Below are positions 561 to 61,624 of a stretch of 64,000 bases of DNA, piece after piece. A program made the translations under genes and the position numbers. Under the pieces are notes generated by a model. It searched no databases. It had not been told where the DNA came from and saw only the letters and a list, made by a program, of their open reading frames with translations. This DNA is from a methanogenic archaeon ISO4-H5 (GTDB lineage Archaea > Thermoplasmatota > Thermoplasmata > Methanomassiliicoccales > Methanomethylophilaceae), in contig CP014214.1 in NCBI GenBank assembly GCA_001560915.1, positions 868,001 through 932,000 on the forward strand. The letters are read 5' to 3'. How positions within the stretch are numbered: position 1 is the stretch's first letter; the number at the start of each line of letters is the position of its first letter.

Positions 561-1973
561 ATGTCCTTCCGCTGGGCTCTTCCGATCGCAGCCGTCCTGA
601 TGGCGACGGGATTCATCCTTTTCACGGAATGTGCGGATGAGTCGGAGGCTCTGAACGAGGGCTACAAATTGGATTGGGAAGGTAACGATCTCACCGCTAC
701 GGGCAGCGGCGACTTCCAAAGTGATCCGGGCTGGACCGCCCTGGAGAATCTGACCATCGTTCCCGATGGCGGCGAGGTGAGTATACCCGATGAGGCGTTC
801 CAGAATAATGCCACACTCAGAACCGTCACCATCCAGGGTTCAGTCGGTTCCCTCGGCGGAGAACATGCGTTCTATAACTGCGATGCGCTGGAAACCGTCA
901 TCGTACATGGTTCGGTGGGTTCCATCGGTTTCAGTGCAATCTCTTACTGTGGTGCCCTCACCACAGTTACCATAGAGGGATCTGTGGGACATGTCGGAGA
1001 ATGTGCATTTTAGTCCTGCAGCATTCTTGGCACAGTAACCATAAAGGGTACTGTAGATTCCATAGGCAATACTGCGTTCATGGGCTGTCATGCCCTTACC
1101 ACAGTAACCATAAAGGGTTCCGTGGAGTCCATCGGCTCGAATGTATTCTCTTACTGCGATGCCCTCACCACAGTAACCATAAAGGGTTCCGTGGAGTCCA
1201 TCGGTGAGGCTGCGTTCGAAGCCTGTGCTCTGACCGCTGTTGCCCTTAAGGGCCCCCTGCAGTCTATCGGATCAGATGCGTTCCGTAATTGCAAAGCCCT
1301 AACCTCAGTAGACATCGAGGGTTCCGTGGGGGCCATAGGTTATGGAGCCTTCTGGAACTGCGATGCCCTTACCACAGTAACCATAAAGGGTTCCGTGGAG
1401 TCCATCGGGATCGAAGCGTTCTCATCCTGCGACCATCTAGGCACCGTTACCATCACCGGTCCGATTACCGCTATAGGCGGAAATGCATTCTTCGGAAGTG
1501 AGAATCTGGAGACCTTGAACATCGCCTGCAACGACCCGCTGAACATCACCGCGGGAAGTGCTGATAACGGTCGCATCGCACAACATGCCGTGACCGTGAA
1601 CCATGTCCATAGGTATTCCGCCACATACACGTGGGCCGACGACGGGAGTTCCTGCACGGTTCACATGGTATGCGCCAACTCCTCCGATCACAAACACGAT
1701 GAGATTCCTCCGGTTACCTCGGTCGTGAAGATTCCACCCACCGCGACAGAGATGGGAACCACCGAGTATTCCGTGTCGGGTACCTACGACGGCTTCGCCT
1801 ATTCCGACACCAAGGACGTGCAGGACATCCCTGCGACCGGTGGAGATCCCTATGACCCAGGCGATAAACCATCAAGCCATAACCGGTTCCTCGCACTCGC
1901 ACTTACCCTGTCTGTGCTGTCCCTTCTCGGAGTGGTCGGTGCAGTGGTCCTTCTACGCAGACGTACGGTCTGA
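561..1973 (+). CDS. BspA-like leucine-rich-repeat surface protein with one in-frame TAG codon
   Basis: Cell-surface protein of 470 codons. The N-terminus MSFRWALPIAAVLMA is a signal/anchor segment and is shared with the BspA protein at 30789-32078. LRR_5 (BspA/TpLRR) repeats of the type ALTTVTIKGSVESIG follow. A C-terminal ectodomain (HRYSATYTW...DIPATG) and a membrane helix with an RRR tail end the protein. Codon 151 (1011-1013) is TAG. Reading straight through it restores the repeat in register: F-TAG-SC-SILGTVTI aligns residue for residue with F-S-YC-DALTTVTI in the next repeat. The gene ends in TGA. It is therefore annotated as one gene with UAG read as an amino acid (pyrrolysine is the candidate). 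The alternative is a nonsense-mutated pseudogene or a base-call error. Confidence 0.8.
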
Positions 1974-1985
1974 TTGGGCGGTCTT

Positions 1986-2522
1986 TCAGCGGAAGAGGAT
2001 GATGCCGTAAAGCGTGACTGAATCTTTTCTAAATTCGAATTCTATGCCGATGCTTCCGAGGAAAGTCTCCATATCGATGCCCATGGCACTGACGGAGATA
2101 ACCTTCCTGTCGGGGAAACGGCAGGGTTCAGGATAGGAGCACTTCTCGCAGAACATGCATCCGCCGTCACCCAACGGGAAGTTCGGGATTCCGGCGGATC
2201 TGGCTTTCAGGGATATGTCGCGGATCATGTCTTGGAATCCTTTGGATATCCTGCCGAGTTCCTCGCCGTCCTTCATGTCCGATACAGGGAATTCTCTGAA
2301 GATCACGAGGGCTTTGCGATAAGTCGAAAGAATGGTCTTGACCTCGTCTTTCCCAGGGGCTCCGGGAGGACATCCCCAGGTCAGTCCGTAGCATCCGCAT
2401 TTGTTCTCTTTGCACAGTGCCAGACCCTTGGAATACGAGTCCTCGCTGTGCTTGGGAGAGTCGGTGAACCTGAACTCCAATCCTTTGAATTCCGAAAGGA
2501 TCGGGTCCCACATATCTTGCAT
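1986..2522 (-). CDS. DUF2284 family predicted metal-binding protein
   Basis: A 178-residue protein rich in cysteines: CKENKCGCYGLTWGCPP near residue 40 and CMFCEKCSYPEPCRFP near residue 125. This spacing is typical of DUF2284, a family common in methanogens and anaerobes and thought to bind metal or Fe-S clusters. The C-terminal stretch on ISVSAMGID is also typical. I chose the ATG at 2522. A longer frame exists only from a TTG at 2567, without a convincing ribosome binding site. The gene ends in TGA and converges with the BspA-like gene, 12 bases apart. The biochemical role is unknown. Confidence 0.8.
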   Translation of the reverse strand: MQDMWDPILSEFKGLEFRFTDSPKHSEDSYSKGLALCKENKCGCYGLTWGCPPGAPGKDEVKTILSTYRKALVIFREFPVSDMKDGEELGRISKGFQDMIRDISLKARSAGIPNFPLGDGGCMFCEKCSYPEPCRFPDRKVISVSAMGIDMETFLGSIGIEFEFRKDSVTLYGIILFR

Positions 2523-2601
2523 TTCTTTTTGATATAACGGATTAGAGTTAATGGGGTGGGACAGCAACCATCAATATGTTTCTTGAACGATCTTGACTAT
2601 A

Positions 2602-2829
2602 TTATTCTCTGGAATTGCGGGATGCTCCATATTCTGCTATGGCAGCATCGAATTCTTCTGAGGATATGTCATCAAAAACCTGACGTCTCCATTTGGTATA
2701 ATTGGAGTTATTGGTCTTGACCGCAGCAAGGAACATCTCGGTGTTTATAACCCCGAATCTATCAACGAGATAATCCATACCCAATCTGTACATCTCACTC
2801 ATGGTGTATGTCTCATTGCTCATTTCCAT
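2602..2829 (-). CDS. small VapB-like antitoxin, type II toxin-antitoxin
   Basis: A 75-residue protein starting MEMSNETYTMSEMYRLGMDYL. The motif DRFGVINTEMFLAAVKTN followed by YTKWRR resembles small proteins found next to PIN-domain toxins in archaea and anaerobes. The ATG at 2829 has a GGAGG six bases upstream (2836-2840). An ATG two codons later is the alternative. It overlaps the end of a damaged PIN toxin remnant, so it may be an orphan antitoxin. The gene ends in TAA. The toxin-antitoxin role is inferred from family resemblance and neighbourhood. Confidence 0.6.
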   Translation of the reverse strand: MEMSNETYTMSEMYRLGMDYLVDRFGVINTEMFLAAVKTNNSNYTKWRRQVFDDISSEEFDAAIAEYGASRNSRE

Positions 2830-2948
2830 TATATTCCTCCTTGATTGTAATACAATCCACAGGAGATATAACCTTAAGCCTTCTGCCTCTAATTTGAGCA
2901 AACGATCGTCGGTTGTAAGGAATATTACATTTGGCCTTACTCGGTTTA
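2813..2948 (-). pseudogene. VapC/PIN-domain toxin C-terminal remnant, frameshifted
   Basis: In one frame the minus strand reads NVIFLTTDDRLLKLEAE, the typical C-terminal half of a PIN nuclease (acidic TTDDRLL motif). The sequence then continues in the next frame as RLKVISPVDCITIKEE and stops, which is the usual PIN ending (LKVI-PVD). The N-terminal half is absent because the upstream gene ends at 2963. The remnant overlaps the start of the antitoxin-like gene. I read it as a decayed vapC. Confidence 0.5.
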
Positions 2949-2962
2949 GAGGATAGGTACGT

Positions 2963-3517
2963 TCACTCCTCGGTGACGTTGAATCCAATGAGAACCGAAG
3001 CTAACTTTCCGTCGTCCTGGAGACCCTCGTATTTCCTCATCATGAGGTCCGCGGTGGGTGCGGGACTGCATGATACGACATCCTTGCATCCGTTGGAGGG
3101 ATTCAGTTCGGGGAAGGATACGGGGGGCATGATGAACTTGGCGGGTTGGTTGTTGATCTTGCTGGTGAGGACTACGAATCCGTCTGATAACCAGATGGCA
3201 TCCTCCCTCTTCTCGAACTCGCCCATGGTCCACGGGAAAACCTCGTATCCGCAGATCTGGTCTCCGGAGTACATGAGAACGGTGGGTTCAGGCGGGGGCC
3301 TGAAGCGGGGATCCTTGATGATGGCAATGACATAATCGCGTTTGAACGCCTCTTTGACACCCTGGTTGTCGACCCCGGTTCCTCCCGCGGCCATGACTTT
3401 CTTTTCCTCTTCGAGCATGTGTCCTTTGATGGTGTCGTCCAGAAGGTAAGCTGCACGGACACCGCGCAGACCTTTGCAGATGTTCAAGGCGTTTTCGAGA
3501 ATTTCCTGTTTTCCCAT
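2963..3517 (-). CDS. conserved hypothetical protein (184 aa)
   Basis: Not recognised. It is soluble and mixed alpha/beta in appearance, with no signal or membrane segment. Notable stretches are AGGTGVDNQG, IKDPRFRPPPEP and a C-terminal half with two cysteines near CKDVVSCSPAP. The ATG at 3517 is preceded by GGGGAG at a suitable distance, and the gene ends in TGA. Together with the 65-codon gene just upstream and the toxin-antitoxin remnants downstream it forms a minus-strand run, but no shared function can be seen. Confidence 0.75.
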   Translation of the reverse strand: MGKQEILENALNICKGLRGVRAAYLLDDTIKGHMLEEEKKVMAAGGTGVDNQGVKEAFKRDYVIAIIKDPRFRPPPEPTVLMYSGDQICGYEVFPWTMGEFEKREDAIWLSDGFVVLTSKINNQPAKFIMPPVSFPELNPSNGCKDVVSCSPAPTADLMMRKYEGLQDDGKLASVLIGFNVTEE

Positions 3518-3581
3518 TGCCGTCTCCCCGTTTAGTAATTACTCCATGTCTCACCCTTATAAAGTACTTGGTGAACTCACA

Positions 3582-3779
3582 TCATTCGGGGGGCATGGTC
3601 TCCTCAAGGCGTCTGAGTTTCTGTTCGATCTCCTCCAGGGTCTGAGCGAGCATTGCCGGTTCCCTGCAGTAGTCCTCTTCGAACAGGGTGATGTAGAGGC
3701 ATATGACGTCTCTGAGACTGTACAGGATCTCGTATTCAGTGGAGTTTGCGAAGTAGTCGGTTGCATCCCTTTTGTTCAT
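3582..3779 (-). CDS. small hypothetical protein (65 aa)
   Basis: A short acidic protein beginning MNKRDATDYFANSTEYEILY and ending in a charged helical segment, LEEIEQKLRRLEE. The C-terminal heptad spacing suggests a helix or short coiled coil. It lies 64 bases upstream of the 184-codon gene on the same strand and may be cotranscribed with it. It ends in TGA. No family was recognised; the call rests on reading frame and composition. Confidence 0.5.
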   Translation of the reverse strand: MNKRDATDYFANSTEYEILYSLRDVICLYITLFEEDYCREPAMLAQTLEEIEQKLRRLEETMPPE

Positions 3780-3867
3780 GGTGAGTGTTTCGAATCAGAG
3801 GTTTATAAAAGGCGGATACTACAATTAGCACTAACTCAACATATATGCGGTCGTCGATTATTCATCC

Positions 3868-4266
3868 ATGAGTCTCGGGAGCGAGGGTCCGATCACCGCA
3901 TTCTTCGAGGGTATGGAACAGCTGGACGAAGCTGTCAAGACCCTGACCGGTATGCTCAACCGCTACAACCGCGGCCGGATCCTTCTGGGAGTGGATTCAC
4001 ACGGTGATGTTTTAGGAAAAGCATTCTGCGAAACCGATGTCGAGACCGTCCGTGAAACCATCGGGAAGAGCATGAATCATGTTCCCGACGTCAGGATTCA
4101 GATTGGTCTTACTTCCGATGGGAAGCAATACCTATCCATCGAAGCAGAGGGTTACGAGATCCCTTACTCATACAAAAGCTGGTTCTACTCCCGCAGACAG
4201 TGCCCCGGTGCCGAGCCGGGAAAGGAATGGGTCACGCTCCTCACCTGTGGTATGAGACATCACTAA
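3868..4266 (+). CDS. Schlafen AlbA_2 domain protein, probably truncated
   Basis: The 132 residues match the AlbA_2 (Schlafen AAA_4-type) nucleic-acid-binding domain: NRYNRGRILLGVDSHGDVLG, then a DVETVRETIG helix, and IEAEGYEIPYSYKSWFYSR. Full-length relatives such as the gene at 23619-25043 continue for several hundred residues with a HATPase-like region and a winged helix. Here the frame drifts into unrelated sequence after SWFYSR and stops with TAA. This suggests a truncated or frameshifted copy. It may still be a free-standing binding domain. Confidence 0.6.
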   Translation: MSLGSEGPITAFFEGMEQLDEAVKTLTGMLNRYNRGRILLGVDSHGDVLGKAFCETDVETVRETIGKSMNHVPDVRIQIGLTSDGKQYLSIEAEGYEIPYSYKSWFYSRRQCPGAEPGKEWVTLLTCGMRHH

Positions 4267-4311
4267 ATCAGTACAGTTTTTAACCGTTAAACGGGATTAA
4301 GTTGTGATAAC

Positions 4312-5094
4312 ATGGAATCCACCCTCCAAATAACGGATAACTGCATTGGGTGTGGGAAATGTGTGAAAGTCTGCATCCGCGGACATCTCCATGTCGAGGA
4401 CAAGAAGGTCCGCGAGGTAGACTCCGCATATTCCTGCTTCAGGTGCGGACACTGCGAAGCGGTATGTCCCAAAGGTGCCATAACCCTGATCAAAGGGGAT
4501 GCCCCCGAGGCTGTGGACGGCTGCCCTGTTTCTGCCACCGATATGGCGAAACTCCTGCGCACCAGGCGCAGTATCCGCTGGTTCGACCGGAACTGTACCA
4601 AGGAGGAAATCGCTTCCCTGCTGGCGGCTGTCCGTTACGCTCCGACTGCGGAGAACTCGCAGAAGGTGGAGTATGCGGTCATCGATTCCCGTTTCGGGGA
4701 GTTCATGGAGATGCTTGCATCTATCCTTCGTTCGCATACCGGAGAACACCCGAGGCTGAAGCAGTTCGTCGACTACGTGGACGGAGGTATGAAGGAGAAG
4801 AACAATCCCTTCACCTGGGAAGGAAGGCAGCTCATCATCGCCTTCGCACGTTTCCCCATCGATGCCATCATCCCCATCGAACAGCTGGATCTGATGGCTT
4901 ACTCCATGGGTCTCGGAGGGTTCCATTCGAGGTGGATGCTGCAGGCCTCGGAGAACGATCCCGAGAAGTTCATGAGCTTCTTCCCCGATGTCGATCCCGA
5001 GCTTAAGGCGTATGCGATCTTCGTCGTCGGGCATCCGAGGATGCGCTTCATCCGCACGGTCCCCCGTGACGAGAGGAAGATCCACTATATGTGA
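4312..5094 (+). CDS. nitroreductase family protein with N-terminal 2x[4Fe-4S] ferredoxin domain
   Basis: Residues 1-60 carry two ferredoxin motifs, CIGCGKCVKVC and CFRCGHCEAVCP, for two [4Fe-4S] clusters. From about residue 75 the FMN-binding nitroreductase fold begins: LRTRRSIRWFD, YAPTAENSQ, and a GLGGFHSRWM stretch near the C-terminus. Such fusions are frequent in anaerobic archaea and are thought to feed electrons from ferredoxin clusters to FMN. The physiological substrate is unknown. The ATG at 4312 follows a short AT-rich leader. The gene ends in TGA and is followed by a hairpin with a T-run. Confidence 0.9.
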   Translation: MESTLQITDNCIGCGKCVKVCIRGHLHVEDKKVREVDSAYSCFRCGHCEAVCPKGAITLIKGDAPEAVDGCPVSATDMAKLLRTRRSIRWFDRNCTKEEIASLLAAVRYAPTAENSQKVEYAVIDSRFGEFMEMLASILRSHTGEHPRLKQFVDYVDGGMKEKNNPFTWEGRQLIIAFARFPIDAIIPIEQLDLMAYSMGLGGFHSRWMLQASENDPEKFMSFFPDVDPELKAYAIFVVGHPRMRFIRTVPRDERKIHYM

Positions 5095-5101
5095 AAACCA
5101 A

Positions 5102-5131
5102 GCCGGTCCGGGAATACCCAGACCGGCGATT
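5102..5131 (+). terminator. hairpin with T-run between convergent genes
   Basis: gccggtc (5102-5108) pairs with gaccggc (5121-5127) and is followed by gatttt. It sits eight bases after the nitroreductase stop and in front of the convergent membrane-protein gene. This is a plausible transcript end. Confidence 0.6.
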
Positions 5132-5143
5132 TTAAAGTAGTTT

Positions 5144-7069: not shown

Positions 7070-7090
7070 AATGCAGGAGTGTATGTTTTT

Positions 7091-7102
7091 ACTATACATA
7101 AA
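7091..7102 (-). promoter_or_regulatory. TATA-like box for the leaderless HPr-kinase-like operon
   Basis: The minus strand reads tttatgtatagt, centred about 28 nt upstream of the ATG at 7069. No ribosome binding site is present between the two, so transcription would start at or next to the start codon. Confidence 0.5.
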
Positions 7103-7150
7103 GCAAACTTTATGTGATACATATCGTTCTCCGACACAGAAGGGATAGCA

Positions 7151-7827: not shown

Positions 7828-7840
7828 TTTTCAGAGCAGG
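7818..7840. terminator. hairpin containing the stop codons of both convergent genes
   Basis: cctgctctga (7818-7827) pairs perfectly with tcagagcagg (7831-7840) across a ttt loop. The TGA of the plus-strand gene (7825-7827) and the TGA of the minus-strand gene (7831-7833) are both inside the stem. It could mark transcript ends in both directions. Confidence 0.55.
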
Positions 7841-10953: not shown

Positions 10954-12903
10954 TCACTCCTTGGTTGCGGAGAGCTTGCCGAGCTTCACGTTGTGTCCGT
11001 AGATACCCATGGTCTGAAGGACTGCGAAGATGACGGCGATGATGGAACCGGCGAGGCTGACCTTGGCTCCGAGTCCGAGGACGACTGCTCCTCCGAAGAT
11101 ATCCCAGGTGAGGAACACTGCGGAGAGGACGAGTGCGACGACGGAGAGGACCAGGCAGACGATGGTGAGTGCCTTGGATCCCTCGGGCTTGAGGAAGTTG
11201 AGTGCCTCGACGGCAAGGACGAGGAATCCGACGATCATCACGATGAGGGGGATGAACTGGAAGATTCCGTCTGCCCAGCTGGCGCTGAAGAGGGAGAATC
11301 CCCTGACGAAGGGCATTCCGTCGACCCATCCGCAGACTCCTGCGCAGAAGACGAGGATTGCACCGACGATGGCGAAGGCGCTCATGAGCTTGGGCTGGGG
11401 GTTGGCCTCCTTCTCGAAGTGGACTCCGGGGGTGACCTCGGGGTGCATCTGGCAGTTCCACCACTGGATGAAGATCCAGGCGGGGACGTACAGGAGGGTG
11501 GCTCCGATTCCGATGATGCAGTATCCGAATCCCATGTACTCGTATACATAGTACAGAAGTCCGGGGATCATGAAGAAGAACTCGAAGATCGCCATGAAGT
11601 AAGCTCCGGGCAATGCCCATTTGGGTGCCCTGTAGACCCTCTCGACATCCTTGAAGCGGGGGTCGTGCCTGCTCTTGATGAATGCGAGCATGCACATTCC
11701 GAGAGCGATGGCGAATCCGAGTGCGGATACGGCGAGGATCTGGGAGGCGGTGATGCCTGCGAGGATGATGACGAAACCGATGAAGGCCTCGAACAGCATG
11801 GCGTAGATGGGCACACCGTACTTGTTGGTAAGGGAGAACATGTAGGGGAAGTTTCCTTCCTTTGCCATAATCTGGATGGTCCTGGCGGTTCCGAGGAAAG
11901 CGGTCTGGATGATCATGACCATTCCTGCGATGAGGAGGACCACTGCAATGGCACCTGCTGCCTGTCCGAAGTCAGCTTCGGAGACGGGAATCAGGGTGGC
12001 AGCTCCAGCTTCGTAAATCTTGTCAATTCCGAGTGCTCCGTACATGCAGAACGCGATAACGAAGTACATGAACAGACACATCAGTCCGCAGGCGATGAGT
12101 GCCTTGGGGACATCCCTGGAGGGCTCCTTGTATTCTGCTCCGTAGGTTGCTGCGGATTCCCATCCGACAGCACTCCACTGTGCGACAGTGAAGCATCCGA
12201 GAATCATCAGGATGTTGTTACCGTTCCAGACCCATGCATCGCTGTGGGTGCTGTCGCTGAATACATGATCCATAGGCAGCAGTTCTTTGGTGATGATATC
12301 GAGGTGGAAGGTTCCGTTGAAGAGAGGAACGATACAGATGACCAGGATAGGGATGATGGTGACTGCGGCGAGGATCAGCTGGATCTTCGCACCGCCCTCG
12401 AGTCCCTTCCTTCCAGAAATGATGATGAACAGATAGATGAGGAAACCGAGTGCGAGGTAGTACAGTGTGGCAGTAAAGCCGGTAAGGTTCAGACCGAAGT
12501 AATCGTTGATGTAGACACCGGTCATGATGGTGAAGATCGGGATGACAGGTACCCAGGTTGCGAAATATGCCCAGGCTCCCAGCGAACCGATCAGACGTCC
12601 TTTGTTGACTTTCTTTCCTGCGTATTTCTCATCATCCTTGTAGACATACTGAATCGAACCGCCGATTCCGGCGACACCGAAGGTTGCGCACATCTCTCCG
12701 AGGGGGATGTTGAGAAGGAAACCGGAAAGGACTGACAATACCCAAATGATGATGCTCATCGACCAGAGGGTTACCGACAGATCGCACAGCGAGGGTACGA
12801 TGAGAATCGGGATACCCATGGCGATGATGAGTCCCTGTTTCCAGTCGATGCTTCTGACCAACTCGTTGGTCACACCGGCTGTCGTGTTTGCTTCTTCTGA
12901 CAT
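10954..12903 (-). CDS. APC superfamily amino acid/amine permease
   Basis: A 649-residue integral membrane protein with at least 12 hydrophobic helices. APC-type features include the early glycine-rich unwound helix (GIPILIVPSLCDLS...), GWESAATYGAEYKEPSRDVPKAL around residue 250 (helix 6/loop consensus for amino acid permeases) and SALGFAIALGMC. The C-terminal third adds three or more extra helices beyond the 12-helix core. The substrate is unknown; amino acids or methylamines are possible in this lineage. The ATG at 12903 has GAGGT upstream. A TATA-like element lies at 12970-12984. Confidence 0.85.
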   Translation of the reverse strand: MSEEANTTAGVTNELVRSIDWKQGLIIAMGIPILIVPSLCDLSVTLWSMSIIIWVLSVLSGFLLNIPLGEMCATFGVAGIGGSIQYVYKDDEKYAGKKVNKGRLIGSLGAWAYFATWVPVIPIFTIMTGVYINDYFGLNLTGFTATLYYLALGFLIYLFIIISGRKGLEGGAKIQLILAAVTIIPILVICIVPLFNGTFHLDIITKELLPMDHVFSDSTHSDAWVWNGNNILMILGCFTVAQWSAVGWESAATYGAEYKEPSRDVPKALIACGLMCLFMYFVIAFCMYGALGIDKIYEAGAATLIPVSEADFGQAAGAIAVVLLIAGMVMIIQTAFLGTARTIQIMAKEGNFPYMFSLTNKYGVPIYAMLFEAFIGFVIILAGITASQILAVSALGFAIALGMCMLAFIKSRHDPRFKDVERVYRAPKWALPGAYFMAIFEFFFMIPGLLYYVYEYMGFGYCIIGIGATLLYVPAWIFIQWWNCQMHPEVTPGVHFEKEANPQPKLMSAFAIVGAILVFCAGVCGWVDGMPFVRGFSLFSASWADGIFQFIPLIVMIVGFLVLAVEALNFLKPEGSKALTIVCLVLSVVALVLSAVFLTWDIFGGAVVLGLGAKVSLAGSIIAVIFAVLQTMGIYGHNVKLGKLSATKE

Positions 12904-44362: not shown

Positions 44363-45931
44363 ATGGGCAGCGGCGGATATTATTCCTGCAGTATGTGCGG
44401 TTTCAAAAGCGACGAGATCTGGTTCGGTGGCGGTTTCATCGGCAACGACCGCAATCCCGTGGTCAGGGACGAGATACTGGACGGAGAATATGGGGATGTA
44501 CCCAAGAAGATACTGGAATCGGAACCGGACGTCCATTACTACGGACAAATGGACGCGTTCCGCTGCAGGTGCGGGAAGTTCTCGTCCAAATCTACAGTGA
44601 TGATTTTTTCTGCAGAGGGGAAGCAGCTGTATGCACCGACTATGAATTGCGAACTCTGCGGGAAGAGGATGAGGAGACTGAGGAACCCCGGAGGAAAGCA
44701 GGAATGCCCGAAATGCGGTATGCAGCTGGATTTCTACAGCACTGTATTGTGGACTGATACAATGGATTACAAAGAATACTGGTCAATAAGAGGAAATCGT
44801 TTCGTTACCAAGGATGATTTCCTTGAGGTCTCTGTGAATGCCGATGGGGGCCAATTATGCGGATTGGCACAGGATTTGAGAGCTGCTTTCTCGGGTTACG
44901 TAAATCTCGATCTATCAATTGAATTCGTCAGAAAGGCACTGGATATGGATCTCCGTCCATTTAGCAGAAAGATAGCTTATGGAATTCTGATAGATGATGC
45001 GTTGTTGAAGGGATTGCCGTATCTCGGAATCCTGAAGGAGGCATTGGAGGACGGCGTTATACCTGACAGGCCTCTGAGAATGACCGAATCAGATACGGAA
45101 TTCATTCGCAACAATTCCGGTAATGTCAACGATTACTATTCACTACTACATTTCTGCTGGTCGGACAGACACAAGGCAGACAGTTATTGGGCGGAGAGGG
45201 CACTGCAGGCCCTGGAATCGAGGATGTCAAAAGGAGAATCCGCATCGGAGACCGTCCGCAATCTTTTCACATTGTCGGGTTTCGATTGCGGAGAGGACTA
45301 TGACAACAGACTCCTGGCTATTGTTGACAGAACATTATCAAGAAAAGATGTAGAGGATGGGCGGGGTATAACATTCGGTGATTTGCACAAGACACTGGAG
45401 AATATCAGCGGAAAGAGAGAGGATGAATTACTTATCAGATCGGCGGCGAAGGGTTACTGGGAATCCGTGGACGATGTTCTCCTGCGCTACCCCACCGCTG
45501 ATGAAATCCTGAAAGGGAAATATGCCAATGCGATTAACGAATGTATAAGGAACGGAATACAGGGCCGTATATTGACGGACAGGGAATATTTTAGTCCGTA
45601 CTGCATTCTTCCGGAACCTTCCGTCAGAGTGATGATCGATTATCTTGATGAACAGATTGAACTCAGGAACATATAGGAAGATGGCAGCGAAGCCGCCGGA
45701 ATGTATTTGGCAGTCGCCAAATCGTTGTTCGCAAGGGGAGATACAGAGGCATTCAGGTATGCGGCAAGATGCTCAAGCATCGGCATCTGTCCATATCTAT
45801 ATTCCATGCTGGTGGATGGATTCGGGACGGAAAAGAACGAGGCATTGGCAATGAAGGTTGCCAATTCTTTTGATGAAAACAATCTGGCTTTGCTGAAATC
45901 TGTATTATCCGAATGTAGGGGGGAGAGGTGA
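44363..45931 (+). CDS. zinc-ribbon protein with C-terminal Sel1-like repeat, one in-frame TAG
   Basis: 522 codons. The N-terminal 135 residues have CSMCGF, CRCGKFSS and CELCGKR...CPKCGMQ, i.e. two zinc ribbons. A helical region of about 300 residues follows that I do not recognise. Codon 438 (45674-45676) is TAG. The same frame continues EDGSEAAGMYLAVAKSLFAR then YLYSMLVDGFGTEKNEALAM, a Sel1/TPR-like repeat, to TGA at 45931. The continuation lacks a sensible start of its own. GGTGATG precedes the ATG. Read as one protein, it needs UAG decoding. Confidence 0.6.
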
Positions 45932-48306: not shown

Positions 48307-49221
48307 TCAGTTCCGTTCATTAAGGCCGTGGTAGACGTCTATCACGGCCTGACCCTTATCGGTCACTTTGAACCTCTTCTTGACGAAGGGGTCCTCGGTG
48401 AGCCATCCTTTCTCGACCATCGGCGCGATGAAATTCCTCCGGAAGTACATCCTCTTCTTCTGGAGGTCCTCGGTTTTCTTGCGGCCGGGTTTGGGCATGT
48501 ATCTCCAGATGCCTTTCTCGGCGAGTCCGTCGATGATGTCCTCATAGGTCACGTATGATTTCTCCAGGGAGAATTCGCCGATGACGGCCATGGCGGTGAT
48601 CAGCTCCATGTCCTGTTTCTCCGGGTCGAAGGTGACAACCTTGACGGGTTCCTCGGTGGTCAGAACGGCCCCTACGGGCTTTCCGTCGCGGTAGAAGTGT
48701 CTGCGTATGTCCGCCTCGTTCAGAGCCTTTTCTTTGGGCTTCACGGTGAAGGCGGTGAGGACGGAGTACTGCATGCACAGGAGCATTGCTGCTGCGGAGT
48801 ATTCCGGGGTGCCGGAGGATATGTTGACATAGATATCTGTGAAATCGTCCTCGTCGACCCTGACGATTGTAAGCAGTTCCCTCAGGACCTTCCTGTAATC
48901 GGAGGTGTCCAATTCGTGGTCGACGATGCGGATGTTTGGGAGCTTCTCGCGGAGCTGTTTTATCGTTTCGTCATAGAATTCTTCGTAGATGGGAGAGTCT
49001 TCGGTATCGTCCTTCAGGATGTGGATGCGTTCCGCTTTGTAGAATGCGGCGGGATCCACGATCAGGGGTACATCGAGAGATAGGCAGGCGATCATCACGC
49101 GGTCCTTCCTGCCGGAAACCCGGGGAACATCCTGAAGCATGTCAGGTGCGACTTCGCAGGCGCAGCAACGGTCGGACGGATATGCGAGTTCCTCTGTGGG
49201 GACGATTACGATCTCTCTCAT
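48307..49221 (-). CDS. HFX_2341-type regulator: CARF-like sensor plus winged helix
   Basis: 304 residues. The N-terminal half is a Rossmann-like sensor: REIVIVPTEE, IHILKDDTEDSPIYEEFYDE, and IYVNISSGTPEYSAAAMLL, the SxGT loop that in CARF-related domains binds nucleotides. The C-terminal 110 residues hold a winged helix (YEDIIDGLAEKGIWRYM, MVEKGWLTEDPFVKKRFKVTDKG). It matches the HFX_2341/DUF6293 group, related to Csa3-like CRISPR regulators. No CRISPR array or cas gene is in the window. It is convergent with the zinc-ribbon gene. It ends in TGA. Confidence 0.75.
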   Translation of the reverse strand: MREIVIVPTEELAYPSDRCCACEVAPDMLQDVPRVSGRKDRVMIACLSLDVPLIVDPAAFYKAERIHILKDDTEDSPIYEEFYDETIKQLREKLPNIRIVDHELDTSDYRKVLRELLTIVRVDEDDFTDIYVNISSGTPEYSAAAMLLCMQYSVLTAFTVKPKEKALNEADIRRHFYRDGKPVGAVLTTEEPVKVVTFDPEKQDMELITAMAVIGEFSLEKSYVTYEDIIDGLAEKGIWRYMPKPGRKKTEDLQKKRMYFRRNFIAPMVEKGWLTEDPFVKKRFKVTDKGQAVIDVYHGLNERN

Positions 49222-49779: not shown

Positions 49780-50793
49780 GTGACACAATTCGAAGATATT
49801 CCTAGACCCAAAGTTGACATTGCTAGAATCAAATTGTTTGGTAGTATTCCTAGGAAAGTAGTTGAACTTATGGATCCAGGAGAATTTGAGTGCTTTGTTA
49901 CCGAATGGCTTTTTTCAAAATATTCCAATATACAGCATATTGGAAAGACAGGCGACCTGGGCAGAGATATCATCGCATGGTATGAAGATGGCACATGTGA
50001 CATTTATCAATGCAAGCATTATTCTGAGAGCTTCGACGCGGAGAAAGAGATCTTAAAACTAATAGATAATCTTCAGAAGGGCAATTTCCATCCACCTAGG
50101 TGTTATTATTTCGTGTGTCTTAATGGTCTATCTTCGAAGTGGCGTGATGCAATTATCAATGATGAATTAGAGGCTGTATGGGTAAAATGGTTCAATGGTA
50201 AAGAGAATATTAAAAAACAACATCCAAATCTTTTACAGTACATCGATGCAAAAGGGTTTCCAACTGTCAAAGAAGTATCTATCGATACTATAATCAGTGA
50301 GCACTTAAGGACAGTTTATGGCAAATTACGGTTTCAAACATATGAGAACATAGAGCGCGTATCTGTTACCGATGATGTTGACAGAAGATATATCTCTGAA
50401 CTTTACAAAGCATATTCTGAAAAGAGCGGAAATCAGATTTCCGCAGATAATATAGAGCAATTCAAGAATTTTTCAGATGATTTAGAATATCAGAAGGAGT
50501 GCTTTTTCTCTGCAGAATCACTTCGGTTAACCACTGAAGAATATATATTAGGCACCTCTGAATTCGATAAACTCAAGAACGAGATGCATGATAGTGTCAG
50601 AGAAGTATAGTTATCTGAATATTCAAACGGCTATCAGTGTTTGTTGGCCGTCATGAATAAGGCGACAAATACTGTTTTGGATCTTTCGTTGTTACAGAGT
50701 AGATATAAGTTAGTCTCTAACCGGGATCGTAAAGGATTATGCCACATGTTAGTGAATGATTCTTTCTTTGGGTGGTCAGTTAATGATAAATGA
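49780..50793 (+). CDS. ABC-three-component (ABC-3C) system effector: Mrr-like nuclease domain plus CTD, one in-frame TAG
   Basis: 337 codons from a GTG start. Residues 30-85 have a restriction-endonuclease fold: FECFVTEWLFSK, IGKTGDLGRDIIAWYEDGTC then DIYQCKHY, the D...QxK site of Mrr-like nucleases. Codon 277 (50608-50610) is TAG. In the same frame the C-terminal domain continues LSEYSNGYQCLLAVMNKA and RDRKGLCHMLVND..FGW, the G-x-CH-L-N..W ending of ABC-3C C-terminal domains, to TGA at 50793. The readthrough end overlaps the next gene by 11 bases, as in operons. AT-rich codon use. Confidence 0.7.
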
Positions 50794-51202
50794 TCTAAGG
50801 TATGAACTTTCTATTCATGTGCTGATTATTTTGGATTCAATAGGTTCTGCATCATTAAGTCGTATCGCGTTATATGATTTCATTGCCACTCATGGACAAT
50901 TATTCGGTGTTTCGGATTGTAATTTGATCGAAATCGGTGCAATCAAGAGTCAGGCGTTTCTTGGGCGTTTAACATTGTTCGATGATGCAATTCTTTTTCA
51001 GATTGCAAAAGGCAACATCCTTCCAGTTTTTTCCCAAGATGGTTTGAGATATACACTATCCTTTCCTGGAAAGCAATATATCAACGATTTGAATGACACA
51101 TTTTGTGATTATTTGCATGATATTTGTAAGACTATTAACGAACATTACAGCAGGTATTCGGATTCTGAGCTGTCTGTTTTGATTCAAAGGAAGATAAGAT
51201 GA
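50783..51202 (+). CDS. ABC-3C system middle component
   Basis: 139 residues from the ATG at 50783: MINDLRYELSIHVLIILDSI, LSRIALYDFIATHGQLFGVS, ending RYSDSELSVLIQRKIR. It has the length and winged-helix-like look of the small middle component in ABC-three-component systems. It lies between the nuclease and ATPase genes, overlapping both (11 and 4 bases). It probably bridges the two. It ends in TGA. Confidence 0.7.
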   Translation: MINDLRYELSIHVLIILDSIGSASLSRIALYDFIATHGQLFGVSDCNLIEIGAIKSQAFLGRLTLFDDAILFQIAKGNILPVFSQDGLRYTLSFPGKQYINDLNDTFCDYLHDICKTINEHYSRYSDSELSVLIQRKIR

Positions 51203-52923
51203 AGACGATCCTATTTCAATGTTTGACGATATATAACAGGCGGGGTGAACCTTCTGTTATTGATTTTGCTACTGGCAGTACAGGTAGTCTTACAGTGATT
51301 TATGGGCCCTCGGATACAGGCAAGACCTGGGCTCTTAAATGTATAGGAATAGCGTTGGGAAGAACTTGGGATAATACGTTACCTGATTCATATGTTAGTG
51401 TAAAACTGAAAATGCGTGTTGGAGATGCTAAGGTAATAATAAGAAGACAAAGGTCCGATAATAATCTCGAGATATCAAAGAATGGATCACCTTTTGAACA
51501 AATACCGATAAGTAAATCTAAGGAAGAGTTAAATAGTAAATTATCAGAAATTATGGACTTCAATTTCGATAGAGATTTGATAAAAAACACTAGAAATGAA
51601 AGATCAAAATTCTCATGGTTATCATTGGTCGATCTTTTCACATATACATCTGATATAGATTCCGAAGATTCAATATTGAAAGGCAAGCAAAGCTATATCT
51701 CTACATTAACAAGGCTTAATTATCTATTCAATGGAGATGTTTTTGATAAATACATCGATAAGAAAGAGTCTGACCGGAGCAAGTCTGTTTATGATTATTT
51801 AAACCAGCGCATAAAGACATTGCAAATAATGTTATCGAACCTTGATTCGGAAGATGGGCAAAATCTAGAAAATATTTCTGATCTTCTCTCACACGAAGAC
51901 AATCTGTTGGCCGAAATCCAGAAGCTCAATGAACAATTAGATGGGGTTCGTAATGAGATTAGAACCAAGGATATTGAAAAAAATACTGTTAGCATGGATA
52001 TAGATAAATATCGTATTTTAAGAAATCAATATAATTCTAAAGCTCAGAGAATGAATTTTATTGCAGATGCTATAGCCAACGAGCGCAATTCTGCTCATTT
52101 ATGCCCAATTTGTCATAGTAACATGAAAATCGATTTGAATACTCCTGAACTATCTTCCGTGATAAAGGAATATCAAAATAATGTCAATCGTTCTGAAGAG
52201 CTTAATGTACTATTGAGTAGCTTAGAAAACCGTTATTTGGATATATGTAGGGATTATTCAAATTTAAAAAATCTCGAAGGTGATTTGGAATTTAATATTA
52301 AACAGCATAAAACTGATTATGCTGAAGTATCAGCTCTAATAAAGGGTGTGTGTGATGGTGCAGAAACACGCGCAAAAGGGATAAGAGCAAAACTTGAATT
52401 AGAGTCGCTTCAGAGCCAATTATCTAAAAATCCAGAGATTAAATACGAGGCTTTTGAATCAAAATGTATAAATCAGTTATTTAAAGAACTGGTGGAGAAT
52501 GAACTAAGTGATTCTTTAAAAAAATGTTTTGGTTATTCAGATATCAAACTTGACAATCAATGGAATCCCATACTAGACAATAAAGCGAAAAGCACGCATG
52601 GTTCTGGATATCGCGGCCTAATCAATTCACTCACATTACTAGCCATCGCGGTAGTCCTGAAACGTAACGGTTCATTTCCTGGCTTCATAATAATAGATTC
52701 ACCATTAACAGCATTTAGTGAAAATAATAACAAAAGTTGTATCGCGTTAAGATTTCTTGAATACTTGAAAAATTGTTCTAAAGAAATACAAATTATAATT
52801 GCAGAGAACAATGAGAATATTGCAAACGAATTAGAAACGAAATATAATGATAACACGATATTTTTCACAAAATCGAATAATGGCAGATATGGGTTGTTAA
52901 ATGATTATAGCCTAGGGCCTTAA
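51199..52923 (+). CDS. ABC-3C system SMC/Rad50-like ATPase
   Basis: 574 residues. Walker A GPSDTGKT (about 36-43). Long coiled-coil arms follow, with CPICHSNM in the middle (a CxxC hook-like turn). A C-terminal STHGSGYRGLINSLTLLAIA signature-like segment and Walker B GFIIIDSPL complete the ATPase, followed by IIAENNENI. The architecture and the gene order nuclease - middle component - ATPase fit an ABC-3C anti-phage system. The start overlaps the previous stop (ATGA). It ends in TAA. Confidence 0.85.
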   Translation: MKTILFQCLTIYNRRGEPSVIDFATGSTGSLTVIYGPSDTGKTWALKCIGIALGRTWDNTLPDSYVSVKLKMRVGDAKVIIRRQRSDNNLEISKNGSPFEQIPISKSKEELNSKLSEIMDFNFDRDLIKNTRNERSKFSWLSLVDLFTYTSDIDSEDSILKGKQSYISTLTRLNYLFNGDVFDKYIDKKESDRSKSVYDYLNQRIKTLQIMLSNLDSEDGQNLENISDLLSHEDNLLAEIQKLNEQLDGVRNEIRTKDIEKNTVSMDIDKYRILRNQYNSKAQRMNFIADAIANERNSAHLCPICHSNMKIDLNTPELSSVIKEYQNNVNRSEELNVLLSSLENRYLDICRDYSNLKNLEGDLEFNIKQHKTDYAEVSALIKGVCDGAETRAKGIRAKLELESLQSQLSKNPEIKYEAFESKCINQLFKELVENELSDSLKKCFGYSDIKLDNQWNPILDNKAKSTHGSGYRGLINSLTLLAIAVVLKRNGSFPGFIIIDSPLTAFSENNNKSCIALRFLEYLKNCSKEIQIIIAENNENIANELETKYNDNTIFFTKSNNGRYGLLNDYSLGP

Positions 52924-55364: not shown

Positions 55365-55472
55365 ATACGTTAATAGTTAGATGGATACTAAAAGTCTACG
55401 TTGTTATATAGGGCAGTTGTGACAAAGCTGGTATCATTTTAGTAAGGTCCTGGGCAGTCAGGGTCGAGATAT

Positions 55473-56240: not shown

Positions 56241-56251
56241 AAATTGTCATT

Positions 56252-57436
56252 TCACATTTTTTCTTTGAGTACAGGCAGGCCTTCTATTACCGGATTGATT
56301 TTTTTAGGGATGGTAACTGTTACAAATTCGGTTATTTTCTTTTTCAACTGGTTTTCAATATCTTTATCATCATTAATTTTAAAAGATTCAGAAAATACCC
56401 TGGAATACATCCCTGTACTCTGGGCACGGTTCTTTAAATTGTTAGAAAGGTGATCATAGATAATTTGACGCTTTTCAGGATCGATTGCAGGTCCCAACGT
56501 TAGTGTAAAGGCCGAGTTGCCTTGGCGATTATTAATAATTTCAAACAACAAAACATCATCACATTTATCAAACCAGTCGCTTGTACCAAGGCCTCCCACC
56601 TTTTCCAAGATTAACGGTGTAGTAAATCTGATGTAGCTGTTATTGCTTTTCTTAATAATTACCCCTGGCAAATCTTTGAGAATCCTCTTGATTAGTTCTG
56701 CGCGTTTATGGAATGAATCCGGAATGTTTTCAATCAGCAAATCTATTGCTTTTTTGTGCCGTGCATAGATGTCGCTGCACAGTTTCTGAATCTCAGTTTC
56801 TTCGTCACCCAACATCTCTTTCAACATCTCCGTATAGTCAGTAATGTAATTCAAACCTGGGCTATCCTTGGGAATACGGCCCGTTATGGAATCTAAAATC
56901 CGAATAATCTGAGGGTATCCGATAGGCACCCATTCCTTGTCGATTGCTTCGGACTGATCCAAGGTAAGATACACGAAAAATTTCTTTTTTACCTGCGAGT
57001 ACAATTCATTAACCGTTACCCGATAATCTGATGTTTGCCCAGGGGATTCTTTTGAACGGATTTTATTCTCTATTACTAATACAAAAGCAGCTTTTTCGGA
57101 CTCGATTATGATGTCCATATGATGAAGTTCGCGATGAACTATCGCATCGTCGAAATCCATATTATCTATATCGAAAACATCGATCTTCTCTAAACCAGCA
57201 GAAGATGCATATTCGAATAAGAATTTTTTTAGGAAAATGTCTCCAAGTTTATGATTTCCGGCCGGATCTAGTAACCATGCTAAAAAATTACTATGCCGTA
57301 TTTCGTTATTTTCGATTGACAGTATTCTGAAAATATTAACATTGTCGGCAAATGTTTCTAATTTATCCAAAGAATCAGTGTCTAAAAGTAACTGACGTAA
57401 TACATTTTTGTCTTCTTCGGATTCGTTGATTGTCAT
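56252..57436 (-). CDS. PD-(D/E)XK nuclease superfamily protein
   Basis: 394 residues. IRHSNFLAWLLDPAGNHKLG near residue 45, then HMDIIIESEKAAFVLVIENK, the D...E-x-K catalytic pattern of the PDDEXK_4 family. GLNYITDYTEMLKEML and a C-terminal substrate domain follow. Such proteins are usually in mobile or defence contexts. The start at 57436 follows an AT-rich promoter. It ends in TGA, just before the DUF6994 gene. Confidence 0.85.
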   Translation of the reverse strand: MTINESEEDKNVLRQLLLDTDSLDKLETFADNVNIFRILSIENNEIRHSNFLAWLLDPAGNHKLGDIFLKKFLFEYASSAGLEKIDVFDIDNMDFDDAIVHRELHHMDIIIESEKAAFVLVIENKIRSKESPGQTSDYRVTVNELYSQVKKKFFVYLTLDQSEAIDKEWVPIGYPQIIRILDSITGRIPKDSPGLNYITDYTEMLKEMLGDEETEIQKLCSDIYARHKKAIDLLIENIPDSFHKRAELIKRILKDLPGVIIKKSNNSYIRFTTPLILEKVGGLGTSDWFDKCDDVLLFEIINNRQGNSAFTLTLGPAIDPEKRQIIYDHLSNNLKNRAQSTGMYSRVFSESFKINDDKDIENQLKKKITEFVTVTIPKKINPVIEGLPVLKEKM

Positions 57437-57789
57437 GTGTCCCTCTTTATTTTTCGAGTTAGAATTGTTTTTTCAATAATTATTTTTCTTTTTGTATAAG
57501 TGTCATTTAACCTACGGAGTGTGATGATAAACGTTATTTCTGATGATTCAACTTATTTTATTTCCTTACTTTCATATTAGCGTGTTATCTGTAAATATGA
57601 AGAATATCAAAAAATACGCCTGCTGAACACTCTCTTCTTTTTGAGAAACATAACATAAGTATACCTATAACAACCCGATAAATCTAACATTTTTGTCGAG
57701 GTGCTGAGGAAGCACTGATAGTGACTTTATATCAGTTCTTATAAGCCCAATTCGTTTAGGCCCAGATATTTCAAAGAGATTAATTTAAT
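57437..57789. other. AT-rich divergent promoter region
   Basis: No gene was seen in these 353 bases. The region separates the divergent nuclease and membrane-protein genes, with TATA-like runs on both strands (for example ttttaatatga directly before 57790). Confidence 0.4.
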
Positions 57790-58665
57790 ATGATTGTACA
57801 ATCAATATCTATGGATGGTCAGTTGTTGGAGGTCTTAATTGCCTTATTCGCAATATTTGGTGGACTTTTGCCGATGATCCTCTCTCACCATTATCCGTTT
57901 AAAAAATCCCCATTCCAAATTGTTTTTTTATGGAATGGGGGTGAAAACAAAATTGTTGTCCGGAATGTCGGAACTATTATTGTCTTCATTGACGAAATCA
58001 AATTACATAAATATCCCGACCTTGGAAAGTTGGGGATAAGAGATATCACTTCTCGTTTTAATATTACTAGAAATTCAACACTATTGCCAGGTAATTACAT
58101 TGTAGCAACCTTTGATGAGGACGATCTCAAAACGATTGTTTTAGAAAATTATAGATACTGTTTTAATAAAGACTTCAATGGAAAAGGAAAATGTCGGCTT
58201 AGTTATAAAATAACACTTGAATCTTCGGAGGGAAATATTGGAACCAAGTGGTTCAAAATAGGTAATAAGTACGGACATTGGCGCTTTTATGATTTTATGT
58301 GGAAACAAGGAAGCTATTATCCGACAGGAAAACAGTTTGAACGTTTGTTTTTTGAAAGGTTCATTTACATCCTTGTAGTCTTTTCGGTAATTCTCATTTC
58401 AGCCGCATCTGAGACCGATTCTCAAATCTGGAAATGGGCATCATTATTTCTCCCTTTACTGTGCTTATTGATCGGTTGTTTGGGAGCTACAGACGGATAT
58501 CGTACTAGAGTTAGGGTTGCAATCGATTCATTTGTGTATTCGTTTCCTATAGTGGTATGGGTGTATTACATGATTTTTCTAATGGATTTGACCGTAATTA
58601 TTGGTATCTTTATCATCGGTTATGTTGAAATTGCATTTAGAAAATTATCGGGTTGGGATTTGTGA
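57790..58665 (+). CDS. hypothetical membrane protein (291 aa)
   Basis: One N-terminal membrane helix (VLIALFAIFGGLLPMIL). A soluble beta-rich domain of about 150 residues follows (FLWNGGENKIVVRNVGTIIV). Three or four C-terminal helices end the protein (FIYILVVFSVILISA, WASLFLPLLCLLIGCLG, VVWVYYMIFLMDLTVIIGIFIIGY). Not recognised. The position inside the defence island suggests a membrane effector, which is an inference. It ends in TGA, overlapping a GTG of a downstream fragment. Confidence 0.65.
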   Translation: MIVQSISMDGQLLEVLIALFAIFGGLLPMILSHHYPFKKSPFQIVFLWNGGENKIVVRNVGTIIVFIDEIKLHKYPDLGKLGIRDITSRFNITRNSTLLPGNYIVATFDEDDLKTIVLENYRYCFNKDFNGKGKCRLSYKITLESSEGNIGTKWFKIGNKYGHWRFYDFMWKQGSYYPTGKQFERLFFERFIYILVVFSVILISAASETDSQIWKWASLFLPLLCLLIGCLGATDGYRTRVRVAIDSFVYSFPIVVWVYYMIFLMDLTVIIGIFIIGYVEIAFRKLSGWDL

Positions 58666-58847
58666 CCCATATCCTGAAGGAAAACGACATCGATCTGACG
58701 ATGTAGGGCATATCGGGCAATATCTATTCGATGGACCTGGTGTGCGAGGGTGACGGGGAGCGTCTTGACGGTTCTCCGGAGCATGAGGAACTGTTCATGA
58801 GGATGGTCGAAGTCCTCGGACTCGATCCGGATCACCTCATCGACTGA
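58662..58847 (+). pseudogene. fragment of a host-like gene with an in-frame TAG
   Basis: From the GTG overlapping the previous stop the frame reads THILKENDIDLTM-TAG-GISGNIYSMDLVCEGDGERL and ends PDHLID-TGA. GC content and codon use are host-like, unlike both neighbours. It may be a remnant of a gene cut by island insertion. The following 58848-59067 holds only short pieces (NIRDIFNVFGMEQMESAL). Family not recognised. Confidence 0.35.
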
Positions 58848-59067
58848 AGAATCGAGCCATTCCGTGCAAAGTGCCAGCGTGAGCTATGGCGGAATCAGGG
58901 AAATTCAAAAAGATGTGCCGAATTCACGCCTGAATGGTGTTCGGCTAATCTGTATCGAAGAACATCAGGGATATCTTCAACGTCTTCGGAATGGAGCAGA
59001 TGGAATCGGCCCTGATCGTTCTAGGATAATGTAACCCATACAATCTGCAGATTTAGGATTATGAAAT

Positions 59068-60171
59068 TTATTTGAAAATTTCATGACTTATTCCGTTATT
59101 GTCACATAATTTGCAGTAGTATTCGTAATGGGACGGTTCCATCAGTGGACTGAACCAAACATGTTTGATGTTTTTGGGTTCGAGTTGCATATACCACCGA
59201 TTTTTATCAGACTCATGTTGTAATTGTATAGCTGGGCGAACAATTCTGAATTCGTTTTCCCAACGATAAGACTCATCTTTGAAAAAAGGATCGAGAAAAG
59301 GTTCACAACCAATCAATCCTATTAGTTTTCCAATCGATTTAGCAGTCTTTTTTTCATGAGAATGGTAATCTCCGAACAATTCCTTGAAATGATTCATCAC
59401 GTCTAATGGTTTAGTCACCTAGTTTCCGTAAACAACCTTTGATGCGAGATTACTAATCTTCTTATCGAATTGGACACAGATTCCCTTATTGCCTGCGTAC
59501 TAATCCCACATTTTTGGGTCTTGATTAGTTGTGCATAAACAACAGACTCTAGAAACCTCACGAGCTTTATTCAAAAGTTGGGAATAATTGCCATAAGTAT
59601 CTACAGTTTCTCTAATGGTTTCAGGCTTGTAACTTGACAATTCCAGGATATCTGATAAAATCTTTTTAGAATCTTCATCCACTGATAAATTAAGTAGATC
59701 TCTACACCATTGAAAACTCATGTCTTGTTTATCCTAAAATTTACTGGGTGGAGAAAAATTGAGTTTGCAGTCGCCTATTAGGTAACGAATGTAATCATCC
59801 TTATCTTTAACAAAATGATAAAGGCAATTGTTCTTTGTCTGAATACAGTTGCGAAGTTTAGTTACTTCTTGATTCCGATAAACATTGTTAAGTAAATTGG
59901 AAGGGTTGGTTTTAATAGATTTGATAAAGCTGTTGAATACAGGGGCAAATGTTGAGAAGCGTTTGTTTATAAGTTCTTTATTTTGCAATAGAATGCGTTG
60001 AATTTCATCACGCGGGCAATCTGTATCAACGTTTTCAGTAACCCATTTTACAGCTGAATTGAAGCCTATCGCATTATTGTCGATATCAAATTTTTCTTTA
60101 AACTTGAAAAATGAATTGATAAGCATTTTCTTTTCACTCACATACAAGATAGGATTGTTAGTATTACCCAA
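59068..60171 (-). CDS. DUF2971 family protein, single frame containing three in-frame TAG codons
   Basis: 367 codons, uninterrupted except for TAG at codons 146 (59734-59736), 224 (59500-59502) and 251 (59419-59421). The translated stretches join exactly as in DUF2971: CLYHFVKDKDDYIRYLIGDC, NFSPPSKF-TAG-D (family: FND), CLCTTNQDPKMWD-TAG-YAGNKGICVQFD (family: MW-HYA-H-G-C-EFD), VVYGN-TAG-VTKPLD, then DESYRWENEFRIVRP. No frameshift, TGA or TAA interrupts it. About 115 residues precede the DUF2971 core. DUF2971 proteins are found in defence islands; the role is unknown. It ends in TAA. Confidence 0.7.
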
Positions 60172-60364
60172 TTTCTGACCGAATGTTCTAGACGGAGTTA
60201 CGGAATTCGTTCTAATAATCTTGCTTGGTTTTATTTGTTAATGAATAATAAGAATACTCCGAGAGCTACAATTACACATTCTGTTAACACAGTCTTATCC
60301 TGGAGAATATGAACCGATGACGGGTAATAATAATCTCTATACCTTCGTTGGATAATACAAATAC

Positions 60365-61624
60365 ATGAAAGGTTCGTCGGATAATCTGATATTCTTCATG
60401 GATGAATCACAAAAAACCGACGTTTTTCAGATAAGGGATGGAAAACCTACATTTGATACTCATGATAATCTTTATTCTTTCATTGGTTTGTTTTGTGGAT
60501 ACCCTGTAGAGAAAGTCGACCAATACCGCAATTTGTTCATATTGTTCGAATCAAAATGGAAACCAAAATACAGCATCCCTCTTGATCAAGAATTTAAATC
60601 CACTGTCATTAAGAAAAAGAATTTTGAATACGGATTCGCATCTTTGAAGGGGAACGGCAAATTTTTTTATCATGATTTTTTAGAATTACTAGTCCGGATT
60701 AATCCGGTTATATCAATATCGTTCTCGAACAAGATAGAACTTTTACTTCGTAAGACGATTAGTAACATTAAACTCGAAAACAAGCGTAAAAACAACTTCT
60801 TTTACATTCTTAGTAAGTTTTTTTCCCTCTACGGAGATGGTGGTTTTTTTGACAAAGTTATTAAATATCCTGAAGAAGCGATATTTGAATTGTCTGAAAG
60901 GCTCAAACAAATCGCAAAACACGATGCTAGCGTACCCAGATTAGAGAAGAGAAATGACGCATTCTAGGGTGCGGCGTGCATATTGGATCAAGTTACTTTT
61001 GATATAACTCCAGTGAACCATTCTGCTTTCCCGTTTATTGTTCTCCCGGATGCATTAATACTCCTATTAGACGAACTAGGCATAAATCCGAAAGATGTGG
61101 ATGTGGTAATCGATGGAGAGGAAGGCCTGTATACTTGTTTTGAGGGACGTTTTCATAACTCCAGTTTCGCAAACTCAAAAGAAGAACCGATGATTCGTAT
61201 TTGCGATCATTTGGTGGGATTAATTTCCCGTATGTGCTACGCTTTGAGAAATGATCTAGGGAGGCGTGAAGCTTCACCAAATGCTAGTTTTGAGGAGAAA
61301 AATAGACTCCGTATCCTCAGATCTGAGTGGTTTGAGATAAGTGAGGACATATTCAATTTGTACAAGCAGACTTTTGTTGTACTTGTACAAAACAATCAGC
61401 ACTATTGGACAACGCTGACTACTGCTCTTTCCGATGATTTGACGTATTTTATTACATTACTTGCTTATTTTCACTATATAGAGTCATATGATGAGTATAT
61501 GAAGAAAACGTCTGTGGAACATTCGCGTTTGTTCGAACAATTTAGTATCGACTGCATGGAAAAAATCCCGGAACAACCTACTAATCCTCTCGAAGTACTC
61601 AAAAAGTATAACTCTCGAGTATGA
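60365..61624 (+). CDS. DUF3800-like protein with one in-frame TAG codon
   Basis: 419 codons. The N-terminus NLIFFMDESQKTD matches the start of DUF3800 (hhh-DES). Codon 201 (60965-60967) is TAG, after RLEKRNDAF. The same frame continues GAACILDQVTFDITP and VDVVIDGEEGL, then 180 further residues to TGA at 61624. The continuation has no ATG for several codons and no ribosome binding site, so it is best read as one protein. AT-rich. Possible RNase H-like nuclease fold (family knowledge). Confidence 0.6.

Follow-up and report, generated by a model that had tools for sequence, protein, structure and literature searches.

In-frame UAG codons of native and putatively acquired genes are very probably decoded as pyrrolysine in the methanogenic archaeon ISO4-H5

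In a 64,000-nucleotide stretch of the genome of the methanogenic archaeon ISO4-H5, which lives in the rumen (order Methanomassiliicoccales), several reading frames are interrupted by TAG and go on in the same frame behind it. This stretch, bases 868001–932000 of the single 1,937,883-base contig, is called the window here. Is UAG a sense codon in these genes, or are the genes broken? An earlier note, made from the letters of the window, held that UAG is read as an amino acid in ordinary and in recently acquired genes. Our analysis of the window and of a larger genome sample indicates that UAG is very probably decoded as pyrrolysine in ISO4-H5. This decoding most likely competes with a normal-looking release factor, aRF1.

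TAG-Interrupted Genes of the Window

The TAG triplets were confirmed at 1011, 45674, 50608, 58704 and 60965 on the plus strand, and at 59419, 59500 and 59734 on the minus strand (CTA on the plus strand). The earlier note had listed six loci read through these codons. All eight codons are TAG, and five genes with seven TAGs are open; the sixth locus, at 58704, is a probable remnant. With TAG as a sense codon, the five open reading frames (ORFs) have 470, 522, 337, 367 and 419 residues and hold 1, 1, 1, 3 and 1 TAG. None of them contains an in-frame TAA or TGA, in agreement with the earlier note.

The first gene (561–1973, plus strand) encodes a BspA-type leucine-rich-repeat surface protein of 470 amino acids (aa) when read through, with TAG at 1011–1013 (residue 151). 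An LRR_5 match (residues 74–202) covers the TAG, and the repeat goes on either side of it. The TAG lies at a variable repeat position, where the seven units found by pattern hold Y, S, TAG, M, S, W and S. A C-terminal hydrophobic segment, judged by eye, is present solely in the read-through form. The second gene (44363–45931, plus strand) encodes a 522-aa protein of unassigned family, with TAG at 45674–45676 (residue 438). The evidence for its read-through is of one kind, the in-frame coding composition of the 84-codon extension beyond TAG; its relatives match residues 1–148 only, and hence none is aligned over the TAG.

The third gene (49780–50793, plus strand, 337 residues read through) is an LmuA-like gene of the Lamassu / ABC-three component type (Mrr and CTD6 domains), with TAG at 50608–50610 (residue 277) in CTD6. 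The CTD6 match (202–332, E 4e-31) and the match to the PADLOC profile of LmuA (21–332, E 1.7e-64) both run past the TAG, and the composition margin beyond it is small (0.02). The fourth, a DUF2971 / PDC-S31-like gene on the minus strand (59068–60171, 367 residues read through), has three TAGs, at 59734–59736, 59500–59502 and 59419–59421 (residues 146, 224 and 251). Its matches to DUF2971 (221–310, Pfam) and PDC-S31 (134–362, PADLOC) span TAGs. One weak relative aligns over all three sites with M, H and K. Relatives of this gene were absent from the plasmid and viral-contig searches, and the search of the order gave two weak ones only, of which one (stretch L066) yielded no row by tblastn. The fifth, a DUF3800-like gene (60365–61624, plus strand, 419 residues read through), has TAG at 60965–60967 (residue 201) and a weak Pfam match (9–289) under the curated cut-off. 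Six plasmid records match it, and the two aligned carry N and R at the site. Upstream of this open gene, at about 57515–57712, lies a short, weakly matching DUF3800-like remnant that contains one TAG and two TAA.

The sixth locus is a 61-codon fragment (58662–58848, plus strand). A search of 99 other genomes gave 15 matches, spread over 8 of them, and the open frames that hold these relatives are 55 to 565 aa long. The fragment is probably a 5′-truncated gene remnant; it counts little as evidence and was left out of the tally.

The interrupted genes of the window could be ordinary pseudogenes, that is, decaying acquired genes whose first hits happened to be TAG. Several of them do have likely remnants as neighbours in AT-rich sequence, namely the 58704 piece and the DUF3800-like one. 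However, 7/7 in-frame stops are TAG, and single-step mutation would yield TAG in 27–44% of cases in these genes. This 7/7 count is biased, as the genes were picked for their TAG, and support from the part of the sample beyond the window is weaker. Behind TAG, the composition is still that of coding sequence and the domain matches go on, and decayed pieces of the same genome do carry TAA and TGA. We consider such decay a very improbable explanation.

Stop-Codon Use in the Window and the Genome Sample

The genome sample covered 844 kb (44% of the genome), made up of 39 stretches of 20 kb and the window. Two of the 39 were chosen deliberately: the CRISPR/Cas region (L034, from 1,140,001) and the pyl cluster (L037). 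The CRISPR array starts at about 1,153,895 in the genome, and the accessible text of the ISO4-H5 paper places it from 1,153,894 and gives 54% G+C (PMC5011839). Genes of the sample were called with an iterated six-frame codon model, and window genes were counted from at least 100 aa. A gene was taken as read through when its frame extended at least 30 codons beyond the first stop, was the best of the six frames there and did not overlap another gene. A first gene set, the longest table 11 ORFs, was dropped: it held antisense shadow ORFs, TAG came first in 36 of its 516 ORFs, and many extensions were non-coding.

The first stop of the 59 window genes was TGA in 41, TAA in 13 and TAG in 5, and all five TAG genes had a coding extension. 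TAG makes up 20.6% of the stop triplets in the uncalled DNA of the sample. None of the other 54 window genes ends at TAG (P = 4e-6 at this rate); the earlier count of 65 such ends (51 TGA, 14 TAA) was not reproduced, small genes falling under the cut-off.

Among the 679 called genes of the sample, the first stop was TGA in 573, TAA in 88 and TAG in 18. The extension was found behind 13/18 TAG, 51/573 TGA and 6/88 TAA stops (Fisher P 3e-10). With the window excluded, 8/13 TAG genes and 53/607 others were extended (Fisher P 5e-6); without the window, L034 and L037 the figures were 4/9 and 50/575 (Fisher P 0.006). With the 13 read-through genes removed, terminal TAG occurs in at most 5 of 666 genes, with P ~2e-58 at the 20.6% rate. 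The rate published for M. luminyensis is 11.3% (PMC4153887), and at that rate P is 8e-28. Genes that end at TAG, with no coding sequence behind it, are rare in the sample, which favours the reading of the earlier note.

The TAG-first genes of the sample include methyltransferases, Cas3, phosphoglucose isomerase and geranylgeranyl reductase. The five of the 18 that are not read through are a probable shadow, two near-identical TnpB-type copies, an integrase and a surface protein. The shadow (L014, 10655–11329) was set aside, as other called genes cover 74% of its extension. When ten sampled or doubtful genes were scanned with Pfam, the domains of Cas3 and of the isomerase flank the TAG rather than cross it, and the genes in stretches L036 and L017 gave no useful Pfam match.

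Pyrrolysine Machinery

The earlier note had named the pyl genes as the thing to seek elsewhere in the genome, and pylT, pylS, pylB, pylC and pylD are all present. The order on the minus strand is an MtmB gene with TAG, the 70-base pylT, and pylS with pylB, pylC and pylD directly behind it. PylS scored 275 bits (cut-off 178), and PylB (398/348), PylC (344/248) and PylD (217/150) also exceeded their NCBIfam curated cut-offs (score/cut-off in bits). All 14 genomes of the genus, including that of ISO4-H5, have PylS above the cut-off. The pylT gene was identified from its location, loop and conservation, and not by a tRNA model. It has a CUA loop, is present in a single copy in the genome, and is 88.7–100% identical upstream of pylS in 9/9 relatives fetched (the genus has 13 others). 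Two more genes with TAG, another for MtmB and one for MtbB, lie near the pyl cluster. The matches of the two MtmB genes and the MtbB gene run full length through their in-frame TAGs.

Another tRNA, or near-cognate misreading, might read UAG instead of pyrrolysine. We hold this to be extremely improbable, given that the pyl set is complete and that none of the 16 tRNAs found by ARAGORN in the sampled 44% of the genome has a CUA anticodon, although ARAGORN also misses pylT.

Constraint Beyond TAG in Native Metabolic Genes

Two ordinary metabolic genes of ISO4-H5 are constrained beyond TAG, in keeping with the claim that ordinary genes read UAG. The geranylgeranyl reductase gene has TAG at residue 296 and is the only close copy among four genome matches. 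The 29 relatives fetched align on either side of the TAG with a mean identity of 0.65 and 0.65. At the TAG site, the closest relative has CAG, and the residues found across the whole set are Q, E, T, N, S, D, L, K or R. In comparisons with three close relatives, the dN/dS beyond TAG was 0.17, 0.31 and 0.15; the comparison with a fourth was saturated and not computable. One of these relatives, from another genus, has a TAG of its own in the orthologue at residue 114, not 296, which is an independent amber gain.

Phosphoglucose isomerase is present in two copies (1884900–1886300 and 564800–566200) that are 97% identical, and one has TAG where the other has CAG. Over the 176 codons beyond the TAG, the two copies show 33 synonymous and 2 non-synonymous differences. 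The comparison with the nearest other genome gave 0.33 beyond TAG, a value reported alongside the dN/dS values. A third, partial copy holds one TGA and one TAA inside, and this is what decay in the ISO4-H5 genome looks like. The TAG and CAG copies form a natural pair for pyrrolysine tolerance.

Release Factor and Apparent TAG Ends

Several observations weigh against pyrrolysine decoding of UAG. Just 4/9 TAG genes continue in the 37 stretches that were not chosen deliberately. A two-flank scan did not favour TAG, as 13/2096 TAG, 59/3352 TGA and 16/1502 TAA sites passed; an in-frame ATG at most 20 codons on, as at gene junctions, was found in 46/59 TGA, 12/16 TAA and 7/13 TAG rows. The pylT gene was missed by both ARAGORN and Rfam. 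Whether the changes between the isomerase copies came before or after the TAG cannot be told. In addition, some genes seem to end at TAG. A TnpB-type transposase gene occurs in four full copies that are 92–100% identical (genome positions 506173, 515857, 583738 and 647613; in sample stretch L009 at 1703–3010 and 11387–12766), with TAG at codon 412 in each. Read-through adds a shared tail of about 22 residues, followed by differing flanks. The integrase gene has 9 codons behind its TAG and the surface-protein gene (L011 319–2517) 14; the 14-codon tail scores as coding, yet was counted as an end. The TAGs of these three kinds of gene are either real ends or harmless tails. Altogether, 4 or 5 of the 666 sampled genes apparently end at TAG, and two of them are TnpB-type copies. 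Finally, aRF1 is encoded by one full-length, normal-looking gene, with two weak partial matches besides; it carries NIKS and YxCxxxF-type motifs. Because aRF1 is full-length with standard-looking motifs, its sequence gives no hint of a loss of UAG recognition, and UAG may act as a stop in some fraction of cases.

These points bear on a dual meaning of UAG, in which it would be pyrrolysine in the methylamine methyltransferases and a stop in most other genes, whose TAGs would mostly give truncated proteins. The normal-looking aRF1 and the mobile genes that appear to end at TAG speak for it. So does the published competition model, in which, in the accessible part of a review, the amber tRNA and the release factor compete at UAG in archaea (PMC9499178). 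However, terminal TAG is near absent, and the two native metabolic genes are constrained beyond TAG. A dual meaning of this kind is unlikely in our view, but it deserves serious weight.

We therefore prefer pyrrolysine decoding of UAG across gene classes, in competition with aRF1. In the mechanism we propose, PylB, PylC and PylD would build pyrrolysine from lysine, and PylS would charge the CUA tRNA encoded by pylT. The pyrrolysyl tRNA and aRF1 would then compete at each UAG. Because a machinery that is always present would make mutation to TAG tolerable, a point mutation such as CAG to TAG could persist wherever pyrrolysine is harmless. TAGs could thus accumulate in ordinary and acquired genes, and TAG as terminator would be nearly eliminated. 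Under this mechanism, the machinery would be constantly expressed, pyrrolysine would be the inserted residue, and the read-through genes would give full-length, working proteins. If so, the raw sequence confirms that pyrrolysine can occur outside the methylamine enzymes of gut Methanomassiliicoccales, and standard annotation with table 11 truncates such genes at UAG.

Lamassu-like Operon and Acquired Defence Genes

The LmuA-like gene is followed by an LmuC-like gene (50756–51202, plus strand; PADLOC), which overlaps its read-through end, and by an LmuB-like AAA gene (51199–52923, plus strand; Pfam and PADLOC). This Lamassu-like operon of lmuA, lmuC and lmuB (49780–52923) sits in an AT-rich stretch of the methanogen genome. 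At least 80% of the read-through LmuA protein is covered in 122 of the 129 matching plasmid records. Seven aligned LmuA relatives carry T, T, H, F, C, H and Y at the TAG site, and ruminant-gut Bacteroidales account for 2 of the 5 named chromosomal relatives.

The LmuA and DUF3800 genes were probably acquired, because a search of 146 other genomes of the order found a relative of neither. Their bacterial relatives align straight across the TAG, and the TAGs probably arose after the genes arrived. This agrees with the claim that recently acquired genes read UAG. Acquired defence genes seem to gain in-frame UAG once they have been transferred, and this would bind them to hosts that use the pyrrolysine code. 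A stronger form of this idea is that UAG is practically fully reassigned to sense and that the acquired anti-phage genes (LmuA, and DUF2971 with its three UAGs) depend on pyrrolysine. We put this forward tentatively, as a possibility slightly less probable than its opposite. If it were true, immunity would operate only under pyrrolysine supply, and the LmuA and DUF2971 genes would be unable to return intact to a host with the standard code.

The gene at 48307–49221, beside the Lamassu-like operon, has an HFX_2341 N-terminal match and a weak Csm6-CARF match. A PDC-S26 defence candidate lies at 56252–57436, and a Schlafen group 3 helicase gene at 61779–63656; with these, the window resembles a defence island at its right end.

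Comparison with Known Systems

Kivenson and colleagues reportedly described, in Science in 2025, an archaeal code in which all TAG codons are read as pyrrolysine. As far as the code is concerned, that claim equals the one made here.

For ISO4-H5 itself, the accessible text of the 2016 paper gives an in-frame amber codon in 46 genes (PMC5011839). These include Cas3, phosphoglucose/phosphomannose isomerase, two geranylgeranyl reductases, 17 hypothetical genes, one adhesin-like gene and 10 insertion sequences (PMC5011839). Cas3, the isomerase and a geranylgeranyl reductase carry TAG both in that list and in the present data. In-frame amber use in ISO4-H5 is thus already in print in that text, and hence not novel. 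The main text, as far as accessible, does not name LmuA, DUF2971 or DUF3800 and gives no count of terminal TAG. What is added here is the TAG in the Lamassu LmuA gene, the three TAGs in the DUF2971 gene and the measure of terminal-TAG scarcity, some of which may already be published. The accessible parts of a 2024 survey of the order and of a screen for alternative codes held nothing further on UAG in ISO4-H5, and we found no publication that combines pyrrolysine and Lamassu.

The closest parallel is with a different species, 'Ca. Methanomethylophilus alvus'. In the accessible text of a 2014 comparison, TAG is rare as its terminator (1.6%), and 16 further Pyl proteins are predicted, including Cas1 (PMC4153887). 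The authors propose constitutive use of Pyl with stable in-frame TAG (PMC4153887). 'Ca. M. alvus' shares with ISO4-H5 both the rarity of terminal TAG and the presence of in-frame TAG.

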